Shown one piece after another: positions 5,307 to 32,170 of a stretch of DNA of 64,000 nucleotides. The position numbers and the translations under genes were made by a program. The stretch lies in the NCBI GenBank assembly GCA_002215645.1, contig NGFI01000004.1:491244-555243 (forward strand), written 5' to 3'. The DNA comes from Gemmatimonadetes bacterium 2013_60CM_65_52. Its GTDB lineage: Bacteria > Gemmatimonadota > Gemmatimonadetes > Gemmatimonadales > Gemmatimonadaceae. The first letter of the stretch is position 1; each line of letters begins with the position of its first letter. The notes below the pieces were generated by a model. It was given only the letters and a program-made list of their open reading frames with translations, made no database searches and had not been told where the DNA came from.

Positions 5307-6035
5307 ATGGCAACAATGACACTCGATGAGCTCGTGAAGCAACTGCACGCGGCATATGGACAGAATCTCGTGTCCGTGGTGTTGTACGGTTCTGCGGCCG
5401 CCGGCGAGCACGTGGCAAAGAAGTCGGACTACAACGTGCTCGTGCTGCTGAACCGTGTGGATGCCACGCATCTCGCCGCGGCATCGTCGGTCGCGCGCGC
5501 CTGGCGCGAGAGCGGCAACCCGCCGCCCATGACGATGACGGTCGACGAGTGGCGGCACTCCGCGGACGTCTTCCCGATGGAGTACGCGGACATCCTCGAG
5601 CGGCACCGTGTGCTTCATGGTGCGCCTCCATTCGAGGGCATCTCCGTTTCGAACGACGACCTGCGCCTTCAGCTCGAGTCGCAGGTGATGGGCAAGCTGT
5701 TGCAGCTCAGGCAGGGTGCGCTGCTGGCCGGCACCGACACAAAACGACAGATCGAGCTCATCGAGGCGAGCTTCAGCACCATCATGGTGCTGTTTCGCGC
5801 CGTGCTTCGCTTGAACGGAGAGAAGCCGCCGGTCGACAACGCGGCGCTCTCGGACGCCGCGGGCCGCCTCGTTGGATTCGACGCTGCGCCGTTCGTGCGC
5901 ATGGCACGCCACCATCGGGGAGACGCCCGCATCCCGGACGGCGACGCATCCGTCATCTTCTCGCACTATCTTGCCGGCGTCGAGCGGCTCGACGCGTATC
6001 TCGACACCTTCACACGTGAGGAACGGTCACCATGA
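5307..6035 (+). CDS. Nucleotidyltransferase-fold protein between TPM and LemA genes
   Basis: A 242-residue protein whose first 60 residues match a pol-beta-type nucleotidyltransferase: VVLYGSAAAGEHVAKKSDYN contains the GSxxxG loop and the start of the acidic motif. The second metal ligand, normally Asp in SDxD, is Asn (SDYN), so catalysis is doubtful. The rest is helical and resembles the HEPN-like helical halves of such proteins. The ATG at 5307 is 4 bases after the TPM stop, and the stop overlaps the LemA start (ATGA), so all three genes are probably translated together. Its role in a TPM/LemA operon is unknown. It could alternatively be an inactive nucleotide-binding regulator. Confidence 0.7.
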   Translation: MATMTLDELVKQLHAAYGQNLVSVVLYGSAAAGEHVAKKSDYNVLVLLNRVDATHLAAASSVARAWRESGNPPPMTMTVDEWRHSADVFPMEYADILERHRVLHGAPPFEGISVSNDDLRLQLESQVMGKLLQLRQGALLAGTDTKRQIELIEASFSTIMVLFRAVLRLNGEKPPVDNAALSDAAGRLVGFDAAPFVRMARHHRGDARIPDGDASVIFSHYLAGVERLDAYLDTFTREERSP

Positions 6036-6601
6036 AACGTTGGCTTGCGCTCATCCTGCCCTTCGCTCTCGCGGGGTGCGGATACAATACGATCCAATCG
6101 CTCGACGAGCAGGCGAGCGCGGCACAGGGACAGATCGAGGTCCAACTGCAGCGGCGCGCGGATCTGGTTCCAAGTCTGGTGAACACCGTCAAGGGAATGG
6201 CGAATCAGGAGCTCGCCGTCTTCGGCGAAGTCGCCCGGGCACGCGGTGGACTGCTCGGTGCAATTCAGACCAAGGATCCCGAGCAGATGGCAAACGCGAG
6301 CGCCACGTTCAACGGCGCGCTGGGTCGGCTCCTCGCGGTCTCGGAAGCCTATCCGCAGCTCAAGAGCGATCAGGGCTTTCTGCGCCTTCAGGACGAGCTG
6401 GCGGGCACGGAGAACCGCATCGCCGTCGCGCGGACGGACTACAACTCCGCCGTGCAGCAATACAATTCATACATCCGTCGATTCCCCGCGGTTCTCACGG
6501 CCAAGATGACGGGTGCGCACGAGCGGAAGTACTTCCAGGTGACGAACGCCGCGAATCGCGAGCCGCCGCCGGTGAACTTCGGTCCGCCGCCGAAGTCCTG
6601 A
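6032..6601 (+). CDS. lemA: LemA family lipoprotein
   Basis: A 189-residue LemA protein. The N-terminus MKRWLALILPFALAGCGYN is a lipoprotein signal with a good lipobox (LAGC). The long-helix LemA core follows, with the family motif RRADLVPSLVNTVKGMANQE and ENRIAVARTDYNSAVQQYN. The family is membrane-attached and mostly of unknown function, often encoded beside TPM proteins as here. The start overlaps the stop of the nucleotidyltransferase gene by 4 bases, pointing to translational coupling. Downstream lies the tandem CACAGAG duplication and then the converging metG. Confidence 0.85.
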   Translation: MKRWLALILPFALAGCGYNTIQSLDEQASAAQGQIEVQLQRRADLVPSLVNTVKGMANQELAVFGEVARARGGLLGAIQTKDPEQMANASATFNGALGRLLAVSEAYPQLKSDQGFLRLQDELAGTENRIAVARTDYNSAVQQYNSYIRRFPAVLTAKMTGAHERKYFQVTNAANREPPPVNFGPPPKS

Positions 6602-6664
6602 GTCCGGAAAGAACGGCAGCGGGTGAGTGGTCTTGTTGCAAAGAACGGGGACTACTTGAATGAG

Positions 6665-6731
6665 CCACAGAGGCCACAGAGAGCACAGAGCTACGACGTA
6701 AGAGTCTCTGTGCTCTCTGTGCGCTCTGTGG
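6665..6731. repeat. CACAGAG palindrome, copy 1
   Basis: Two 26-nt arms (6665-6690 and 6706-6731) are inverted copies matching at 24 of 26 positions around a 15-nt loop. Each arm is three CACAGAG-like units at 8-9 nt spacing, beginning with CCACAGAGG. It lies between the converging lemA and metG genes, so it could form a transcript hairpin in either direction, but there is no T-tract. Confidence 0.9.
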
Positions 6732-6841
6732 TAAATGTTTTCAAGCGTCCCGCGGAAAGAGGAGGCATCTCCCTTATGGACCTTTAAGAAAGGCAGCGAG
6801 AGAGTTGTCTTGTTGCAACGAACACGAACTACTTGAATGAG

Positions 6842-6908
6842 CCACAGAGGCCACAGAGAGCACAGAGCTACGACGTAAGAGTCTCTATGCTCTCTGTGTG
6901 CTCTGTGG
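6842..6908. repeat. CACAGAG palindrome, copy 2
   Basis: Arms at 6842-6867 and 6883-6908 repeat copy 1 at an offset of 177 with a few changes (for example ctctatg for ctctgtg in the right arm). It ends 10 bases before the metG stop codon. Confidence 0.9.
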
Positions 6909-6917
6909 CAAATGTTT

Positions 6918-8444
6918 TCAAGCGTCCCGCGGAAAGAGTGCGTCTCCCTTGTGCACCTTCCACCCCTCGGCGTCCAGATCTTTCAGGTGGTGGAATCGTT
7001 GATCGAGCACCGCGCCCGGTCCGCCGATCTGATCCCATAGCGCCTGGGCCCGCTCCGGCATGAATGGCGCGAGAAGCACGGCCTGCCGGGCGAGTTGCCG
7101 CATCAATGACGTGAGGACGGCATCGAGGGCCTCGTCGTCCCCCTTCTTCGCGAGCACCCATGGCGCGGCCGACTGCACGAACTCGTTGCCGCGCGTCACA
7201 CAGGCCATGGCGTGCCGCAGCGCCTCGTGCAGCAGATAGCCGCGCGAGCCATCCATCGCCGCGTGATACCTCGCGATATCCTCGGCGTCGGCAGCGTCGG
7301 CGGCGTCCGGCACCCCGTGCGGAACCGTACCCGCGCGGTACTTCTCGACCATCGCGATGACCCGACTTGCCAGGTTGCCCCACGCGTTGGCCAGATCCGC
7401 CTCGTACCGCTCGTCGAAACGCTCCCAGGTAAAGCTGCCGTCGCCGTCGAACGGAACCTCGCGCAGCAGAAAATACCGCAGCGCGTCGGCGCCATGCCGC
7501 GCGATGGCTTCATCGACGTCGAGTCGGACGCCCGCGGACTTGCTGAAGCGCTCGCCGCTGAAGAGAACGAACCCGTGACCCCACACCCGAGCGGGCAACG
7601 GCAGCTCCGCGGCCTCGAGCATCGCCGGCCAGATGATGGTATGAAAGCGGGTGATGTCCTTCCCCACGATGTGTAACTGCGCCGGCCAGACTGCCGGACC
7701 GCGCTGCTCCGGAAATCCCGTCGCCGTGAGGTAGTTCGGCAGCGCTTCGAACCACACGTACGTGGTCTGCTGCTCTCCCGAGCTGAGCGGCTTGGGAAAA
7801 GGAATGCCCCACGCGAGTCGCGAGCGGCTTGCCGAGACGTCCTCGAGCCCGCGATCGATGAGTGCCAGCATCTCGTTCCTGCGGCTCTCGGGCTGAAGAA
7901 ACTGTGGATTCCCGCTGAGCAGCCGGCGAAGAAAGTCCGTGTAGCGGCTCAGGCGGAAGAACCAGTTGCGCTCCTCTACCCATTCCAGCGTGCGGGTCGG
8001 GTGAAGCACGCATTTTCCATCGGCGATCTCGGCGTCCTGCTTGAACGCCTCGCACCCGACGCAGTACCACCCCTCGTACGCCTTCTCGTAGAAGTCGTCC
8101 GGGTTGCGATCGAGAATGCGCGTGATGAGTGCCTGCACGCCCCTGCGATGCATCGCGTCCGTCGTGCGAACGAACTGGTCGTAGGAGATGCCGAGCCGTT
8201 GCCACATGGCAGAGAAGCGATCGGCAAGCCGGTCCACGAGCGCTTGTGGAGCGATGCCCTCCTGTGCGGCGGTCTGTTCGACCTTTTGCCCGTGCTCATC
8301 CATCCCGATGAGGAAGTGGACGTCGTCGCCACGAAGGCGATGATACCGGGCAATCGCATCCGCACCGATCTTCTCGTACGCATGACCGATGTGGGGATCA
8401 CCGTTGGCATAGTCGATCGCCGTGGTGAGAAAAAAACGAGTCAA
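6918..8444 (-). CDS. metG: Methionyl-tRNA synthetase
   Basis: A 508-residue class I synthetase that charges tRNA-Met in the cytoplasm. HIGH is intact in DPHIGHAYEK near residue 18, and the KMSKS loop is present as RFSKSAG. A single zinc knuckle is visible, CVGC with a following CVLH, typical of the shorter MetRS type without the C-terminal dimer domain. The start is TTG at 8444, directly abutting the TAA stop of ricT, with GGTGGAG upstream as ribosome-binding site. It is the last gene of the dnaE-accA-ricT-metG operon. Its 3' end forms one edge of the 177-bp tandem duplication. Confidence 0.95.
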   Translation of the reverse strand: MTRFFLTTAIDYANGDPHIGHAYEKIGADAIARYHRLRGDDVHFLIGMDEHGQKVEQTAAQEGIAPQALVDRLADRFSAMWQRLGISYDQFVRTTDAMHRRGVQALITRILDRNPDDFYEKAYEGWYCVGCEAFKQDAEIADGKCVLHPTRTLEWVEERNWFFRLSRYTDFLRRLLSGNPQFLQPESRRNEMLALIDRGLEDVSASRSRLAWGIPFPKPLSSGEQQTTYVWFEALPNYLTATGFPEQRGPAVWPAQLHIVGKDITRFHTIIWPAMLEAAELPLPARVWGHGFVLFSGERFSKSAGVRLDVDEAIARHGADALRYFLLREVPFDGDGSFTWERFDERYEADLANAWGNLASRVIAMVEKYRAGTVPHGVPDAADAADAEDIARYHAAMDGSRGYLLHEALRHAMACVTRGNEFVQSAAPWVLAKKGDDEALDAVLTSLMRQLARQAVLLAPFMPERAQALWDQIGGPGAVLDQRFHHLKDLDAEGWKVHKGDALFPRDA

Positions 8445-15216: not shown

Positions 15217-15278
15217 CCCGAGCATGCTTTCTGCGCCGGTCCCACTGTTGACTTGAGGGCAGCGAAGAAAAAATTGAA

Positions 15279-15351
15279 CCACAGAGCACACAGAGAGCAC
15301 AGAGAGGAAACAAAAAACCTGCGAATTCTCTGTGCCCTCTGTGTGCTCTGT
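15279..15351. repeat. CACAGAG palindrome, copy 3, upstream of the GxxExxY gene
   Basis: Arms at 15279-15304 and 15326-15351 are inverted and match at 25 of 26 positions; the loop is 21 nt and unrelated to copies 1 and 2. The arm is again three CACAGAG units beginning CCACAGAGCACAC. Translated on the minus strand it gives the low-complexity peptide NHRAHRGHRE...LCALCVLCG, which is a product of the repeat and not a gene. Confidence 0.9.
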
Positions 15352-15457
15352 GGTTCATTCGTCCGTCGCGTCTCTGTGGTTCTGTATCATTCTTGCGCTT
15401 CCGGATCTTTCTAGCTCGCCGACGAGACTCTCGTGACTTCGAGCAGCATGTTCGAGC

Positions 15458-15847
15458 ATGCCCAAAGCCGCCGGTTCCGAGCGCGATCCGCTCACCAACT
15501 CCATCCTCGGCGCCGCCATCGAAGTGCATCGCCACCTCGGGCCGGGCTTGCTGGAATCGATCTACGACGCCTGTCTGGCGTGGGAGCTGCGAGCCCGCGA
15601 TATCCGCATCGAGCGTCAGGTGCCGGTGCCTGTCATGTACAAGGGTCTGCAAGTCCCACTCGCCTATCGGCTCGATCTGGTTGTCGAGCAGTCGGTGATC
15701 GTGGAGGTCAAGGCCGTCGAGCGCCTGCACCCACTCGTCGATGCCCAGGTACTCACGTATCTCAGGCTGATGGGGATGCGGACCGCACTGATTCTCAACT
15801 TCAATGTGGGGCTGCTGCGGGATGGAGTGCGGAGACTGGTCCTCTAA
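15458..15847 (+). CDS. GxxExxY family protein (PD-(D/E)xK nuclease-like)
   Basis: A 129-residue protein with the family signature G30-LLE33-SIY36 inside HLGPGLLESIY. A nuclease-like core follows: D73 in YRLDLVV, then E83-V-K85 in IVEVKAVE, and Q97 in DAQVLTYL, which together match a PD-(D/E)xK active site. It probably cuts or binds nucleic acid, but no member that I know of has an established role. The gene stands alone. CACAGAG palindromes bracket it at 15279-15351 (106 bases upstream) and 15914-15986 (66 bases downstream). That bracket makes it a candidate for the enzyme acting on this repeat, by analogy with RAYT and REP pairs; this is an inference. Confidence 0.85.
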   Translation: MPKAAGSERDPLTNSILGAAIEVHRHLGPGLLESIYDACLAWELRARDIRIERQVPVPVMYKGLQVPLAYRLDLVVEQSVIVEVKAVERLHPLVDAQVLTYLRLMGMRTALILNFNVGLLRDGVRRLVL

Positions 15848-15913
15848 AAGTGAAAAGAGAGAGAGCTGGCGAAGGCGCGAGTAAAGAAACGTTACGAACG
15901 AACTTCCAATAAA

Positions 15914-15986
15914 CCACAGAGAACACAGAGCACACAGAGCACTGCGGCATCAAGGAAGAACTCTGTGCGCTCTGTGTCCTCTGTGG
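15914..15986. repeat. CACAGAG palindrome, copy 4, downstream of the GxxExxY gene
   Basis: Arms 15914-15939 and 15961-15986 are inverted and match at 24 of 26 positions, with a 21-nt loop. It lies between the GxxExxY stop and the stop of the converging membrane-protein gene. The arm order of spacer letters differs from copies 1-3, so copies have diverged in the spacers but kept pairing, which suggests that the pairing matters. Confidence 0.9.
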
Positions 15987-23418: not shown

Positions 23419-23446
23419 TTGTATTCACGGCTCAAAGAACGAAAAA

Positions 23447-23478
23447 GCGGCGGGGACGCAGTTCTGCGTCCCCGCCGC
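23447..23478 (-). terminator. Intrinsic terminator for the small lipoprotein gene
   Basis: A perfect 14-bp stem (23447-23460 with 23465-23478) and 4-nt loop. Read on the minus strand it is followed by TTTTTC, so it ends the transcript of the lipoprotein gene whose stop is at 23514. The two opposed terminators separate the converging genes. Confidence 0.88.
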
Positions 23479-23513
23479 CTTTCCCTTCTCACTCTTTCGA
23501 AGAGCTATCCTGT

Positions 23514-32099: not shown

Positions 32100-32170
32100 C
32101 AGTACCCGGTATCCGGCACTCGGTAGTAAGGACCGGGTACCGACTACGGAGTGCCGGATACCGGATACTG
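32100..32170. repeat. Inverted repeat with 27-nt arms
   Basis: The arms 32100-32126 and 32144-32170 match at about 25 of 27 positions around a 17-nt loop; the core is ccggtatccggcactc facing its complement. It lies between converging genes, but the right arm also encodes the last codons and TAG stop (32144-32146) of the deoxyhypusine-synthase-like gene. No T-tract follows, so it is not a classical terminator. Confidence 0.88.

Follow-up and report, generated by a model that had tools for sequence, protein, structure and literature searches.

How did the 3′ end of metG, the gene for methionyl-tRNA synthetase, come to stand twice at the same locus, each time beside a strong hairpin? In the window, by which we mean the whole 64-kb stretch of DNA analysed, metG occupies 6918..8444 on the minus strand (profile match), and a LemA/MamQ-like gene (an open reading frame at 6032..6601, plus strand, matching NF040966 at 109 bits, below the cut-off of 250) converges on a direct repeat at 6609-6761 and 6786-6938, with a spacing of 177 and 93% identity. 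The repeat defines a left unit, U1 (6609..6785), and a right unit, U2 (6786..6963), which overlaps the true metG end; each is made up of a leader, a strong hairpin and a metG 3′ end. When aligned at an offset of 177 bp, the units agree at 142 of 153 ungapped bases, in keeping with the original prediction of tandem units that hold leader, palindrome and last metG codons. Identity amounts to 47/55 in the leader, 66/69 in the palindrome core, 8/8 in the right arm and 21/21 in the metG tail, the leader being less alike than core and tail, and the flanking tail being common to both units, as had been anticipated. Beyond a 2-nt gap the metG-like similarity continues to about 6780 and 6957, giving U1 a non-coding metG 3′-end copy of about 40 nt (6741..6780, minus strand). 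The bases immediately to the left of the unit do not match between the copies (4/29). Both hairpin cores fold strongly, that of U1 (6664..6732, arms 92% complementary) at -52.4 kcal/mol with z -9.2 and that of U2 (6841..6909, arms 89% complementary) at -47.8 kcal/mol with z -7.3. A chance origin of the repeat is excluded, and among the matches listed for the window there is no second direct repeat of this length. The divergence of 7% between the units (11 ungapped positions and one indel) does not bear out the earlier description of the duplication as recent.

The direction of copying can be read from related genomes. A metG orthologue is present in 7 of the 9 genus relatives searched, and these seven were compared; in all of them MetG ends in LFPK or LFPR followed by at least one residue, mostly with D or E first, and the window protein ends in LFPRDA. 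Since the MetG proteins of relatives end in LFPK/LFPR plus a few residues, CTCTTTCCGCGGGAC is native to metG, and since the tail is native, the tail in U1 is the copy. The right unit alone thus holds the real metG end, as had been proposed. That the metG-like tail is instead a component of the element, an idea first suggested by a third copy of the unit (U3, see below), was rejected because the relatives show the tail to be native and because element arms elsewhere lack it. The final GCTTGA of metG (Ala, stop) appears to be part of the element's outer arm, and several copies read TTGAA at this place in the arm profile; this arm may have replaced the native stop of metG. The CACAGAG hairpin is absent at metG from all seven relatives with an orthologue. 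One of them (G007, locus L102) carries a different hairpin, made of CGCAGAGG/CGCGGAGG units, at the same position 3′ of metG, and in two others (G009 and G002) other short repeats with inverted symmetry are seen by eye on the 3′ side of the gene. Because these three genomes carry other hairpins or repeats there, the site 3′ of metG may be a hot spot.

The earlier description of the duplication as local is incomplete, since the unit occurs a third time, with parts of its two flanks, on another contig, 3′ of argF. This copy, U3 (L003/L064), comprises leader, hairpin and tail and is 81% identical over 142 bases. It has the junction between U1 and U2 (TTATGGACSTTTAAGAA) as well as the tail CAAGSGTCCCGCGGAAAG, with at least 12 nt of the metG tail, so that host flank has been transferred along with the hairpin. 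Directly after argF, six of the 8 relatives with an argF orthologue have a peroxiredoxin-like gene and two have other sequence; the hairpin 3′ of argF is absent from all eight. In the simplest order, the element would first have inserted at metG and duplicated in tandem, after which a unit would have been copied to argF along with pieces of its two flanks.

The hairpins at metG belong to a family of about 40 copies dispersed through the genome, in which the pattern CCACAGAGN{6,14}CAGAG has 76 matches, against none for the reversed control. From the 37 stretches taken, 39 copies were parsed; locus L086 remained unparsed, and one further site, on contig C8, comes from the cross-genome motif count only. 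The copies have outer arms of about 26 nt and inner arms of CCACAGAG units separated by spacers of 1-2 nt; a profile of 78 arms has them reaching about 26 nt past the first CACAGAG and gives a weak consensus that ends AATgAAC. A plasmid search for the unit itself gave no match. At one locus (L063, G000:C2:382530-382708) one hairpin arm has expanded to a CTCTGTGG run, as if by slippage. Note also that the window has long inverted repeats at 32100-32170 and 23436-23489, 86% and 88% complementary, respectively, that are unrelated to the CACAGAG family.

Tandem duplication near such hairpins is not confined to metG. Tandem Repeats Finder was run on the 37 stretches, 'near' meaning at most 60 bp from a hairpin (8.6 kb, the rest being 71.9 kb). 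Arrays with a period of at least 10 number 16 near hairpins and 7 elsewhere, and those with a score of at least 50 number 12 near hairpins, at 8 of the 37 loci, and none elsewhere; all 12 strong arrays hence fall within the 11% of the examined sequence that is near hairpins. The arm unit itself lies within some arrays, and two arrays overlap (L077). An additional 214-bp duplication at L065 is visible by alignment only, and L066 and L068, which are 12 kb apart, have flanks in common in inverted orientation. Duplications that include a hairpin were also found among 80 loci from other phyla, with lengths of 167 bp (98%), 181 bp (92%), 58 bp and 62 bp, and there the contrast between arrays near hairpins (11 in 47 kb) and far from them (10 in 176 kb) is weaker, three of the far ones being the same L168 hairpin array. 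These data support the palindromes of the family as hot spots for tandem duplication, and the earlier guess that the palindrome promotes amplification fits all 12 strong arrays.

The original prediction missed the dispersal of some 40 copies, the copy with metG flank elsewhere, and the bracketing of a gene by the same hairpins within the window. This gene (15458..15847, plus strand), the sole GxxExxY member found in the genome, is 8.5 kb from the metG hairpins and lies between two complete hairpins of the CACAGAG family, one upstream (15275..15357, arms 97% complementary, z -12.3) and one downstream (15910..15986, recognised by its inverted repeat and fold). Its protein belongs to the GxxExxY family, matching TIGR04256 at 140.8 bits against a curated cut-off of 35 and PF13366 at 2e-40. 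Of the PD-(D/E)XK residues, D73 and E83 are invariant across 76 sequences and K85 nearly so. The predicted structure is confident (pLDDT 92.3) and has 4ic1_G as its best structural match (Z 9.1, rmsd 3.2, 98 aligned), with Hjc 1gef_E at Z 6.9; Foldseek E-values are weak, the best being 0.014. The model has a PD-(D/E)XK nuclease fold, and the protein is a putative nuclease. Sequence searches returned no PDB relatives at E up to 10 and no phage match for the protein, and no transposase stood out among its top structural matches, which is no proof of absence. Neither a function nor a mobile-element context for GxxExxY was found in the PMC literature searched, a scope outside which most subscription journals and preprints lie; a passage of one paper has it as an annotation only (PMC8934634).

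Bracketing of this gene by inverted arms recurs across phyla. It was scored as the best ungapped inverted repeat between the 250-bp flanks, with a threshold of at least 14, in two non-random samples, namely the 80 loci from many phyla closest to the query and 30 loci from the phylum that were the best-scoring ones per genome. Inverted arms, made of short tandem units, bracket GxxExxY at 50 of 76 usable loci in the first sample, against 0/205 for outward-shifted controls, and at 16 of 29 in the second, against 0/76 for controls and 0/6 for a metG control; when flanks were paired across loci, 352 of 5700 pairs passed. GxxExxY also occurs in 8 plasmid records, and arms were recognised by eye in all four of those viewed (inverted-repeat scores 21, 32, 16 and 8). 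Orthologous sites without the cassette were found at three loci: the window locus, Sphingomonas fabD-fabG and Bacteroides radA. G007 lacks the window cassette, the corresponding neighbour genes being about 720 bp closer, and G008 and G004 are, by eye, likewise free of it in the sequence that follows the upstream gene. Two plasmid loci have cassette-free partners, namely Sphingomonas paeninsulae fabD-fabG and Parabacteroides distasonis radA, where an extra stretch of about 0.46 kb has the arms at its ends. At the window cassette site in G009 (L265), downstream of an aminopeptidase-like gene, a different hairpin of CACACGGAT units is present twice.

Among 298 genomes of the phylum, 21 have at least 5 matches to CCACAGAGN{1,10}CACAGAG, and GxxExxY is present in 20 of these 21 vs 76 of the 277 others (p 5e-10); for at least 10 matches to the looser motif CRCRRAGRCRCRRAGR the counts are 39/43 vs 57/255 (p 5e-18), p values and correlation alike being inflated by genome relatedness, and the reversed-pattern control being itself raised in repeat-rich genomes. 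In one test, the dispersed motif of a genome could be predicted from the arms of its own gene: CGCRAAGRCGCRAAG, expected to be frequent in G257, G278 and G290, occurs there 49, 162 and 14 times, and among the other 27 genomes 14 times in G097, 11 times in G289 and at most twice in the remainder.

A second kind of gene is bracketed in the same manner. Four-helix-bundle genes (TIGR02436, S23p-like) are present in 159 of the 298 genomes and lie between inverted arms, mostly of 7-bp tandem units, at 22 of 27 tested loci (30 fetched, L234-L263), with 0/78 in controls. By analogy, they recall free-standing relatives of the rRNA intervening sequence, an element of about 430 nt whose terminal inverted repeats form a stem and which has a small open reading frame inside (PMC4990558). 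The Coxiella intervening sequence and the GxxExxY element are alike in being inverted repeats around a small open reading frame (PMC4990558); they differ in that the former resides in 23S rRNA and encodes the four-helix bundle S23p, whereas the hairpins here are intergenic, that at metG lying between metG and the lemA-like gene, and the gene bracketed in the window is GxxExxY and not S23p. Repeats of 7 bp, TAACTGA, have been described (PMC4679880); neither S23 nor GxxExxY was found there.

On balance, we think it probable that the metG feature is a dispersed, non-autonomous hairpin element, duplicated together with host flank, and related, though without a gene of its own, to the hairpins around GxxExxY. 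Such an element would have entered at the stop codon of metG and then duplicated in tandem, taking along about 40 nt of metG. Its hairpin would extrude or stall replication and be cut, perhaps by the PD-(D/E)XK protein GxxExxY, the putative driver of mobilisation; repair or template switching would give new copies, and imprecise events would give tandem duplications that carry flank. Several observations were counted against this explanation: arm-spacer matching within copies is modest (16/58 vs 6.7 expected); the direct-orientation control is positive at 18/76 loci because arms recur on each side; 26 of the 76 many-phyla loci and 13 of the 29 phylum loci fail the arm test; a target-site duplication is not definable, the nearest relatives being too diverged; and 57 of the 96 GxxExxY genomes are not repeat-rich as judged by the motif tested, while 4 of the 43 repeat-rich genomes lack the gene (G182, G224, G250 and G057, all of which have TIGR02436 genes). 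These four genomes would fit an instability driven by the host, in which replication stalls at a passive palindrome, the tandem copies arise by slippage or break repair, and GxxExxY has no part in the spread. The clustering of arrays at hairpins, many of them short and slippage-like (19x8.1, 17x4.6), fits it too, but about 40 dispersed copies, the bracketing of GxxExxY across phyla and the cassette-free orthologous sites are left unexplained, and we regard it as rather unlikely. The mere difficulty of assembling hairpins could suggest an assembly artefact, which is very unlikely because U1 and U2 differ at 11 ungapped positions and an indel; a diverged third copy elsewhere and similar duplications in other assemblies argue in the same direction.

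Could the hairpins be structures kept at 3′ ends, where they would terminate transcription or stabilise mRNA between convergent genes? They are strong as RNA folds, and at the 14 of 37 sites where gene direction could be called with confidence, 9 are convergent, 5 codirectional and none divergent. Nevertheless we find this improbable: an intrinsic terminator was rejected for want of any terminator-like site, this hairpin is missing at metG from all seven relatives, at least one of which (G007) has a different one, and no Rfam family scored above its gathering score, the sub-threshold models being mostly plant and animal miRNAs, which plausibly match any long hairpin. Palindromes that are dispersed and that flank a gene on both sides also follow the logic of REP sequences and REPtrons (PMC3733652), and some copies here are in tandem, as in BIMEs. 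Mobilisation by an HUH tyrosine transposase (RAYT) is nonetheless hardly credible, as the genome (97% complete) has no Y1_Tnp match, the bracketed gene is a PD-(D/E)XK gene (PF13366), the arms consist of 7-10 bp tandem units, and no GTAG (or CGTC) tag marks the palindrome end in the profile of 78 arms. Short gene-less copies whose inverted arms are akin to the arms of a cassette with a gene are reminiscent of MITEs, from which the family differs in that no DDE transposase was identified.

Returning to the element reading, a wider proposal can be put forward tentatively: GxxExxY and inverted arms of short tandem units may together form a mobile element of about 0.5 kb across bacterial and archaeal phyla, whose protein would act on its own hairpin and spread gene-bearing and gene-less copies by break and repair, tandem duplications of the metG type being by-products; S23p genes would be a sister kind, and also the source of the rRNA intervening sequences. 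The hairpin family seems to be mobile DNA of a kind little described so far. GxxExxY is a widespread family, and locating its gene within a hairpin element provides a testable role for it; such an element would account for intergenic hairpin repeats of a class that is common in many phyla. At metG one sees what its by-products can look like: a hairpin inserted right where an essential gene ends, duplicating in place and taking host flank to another locus.
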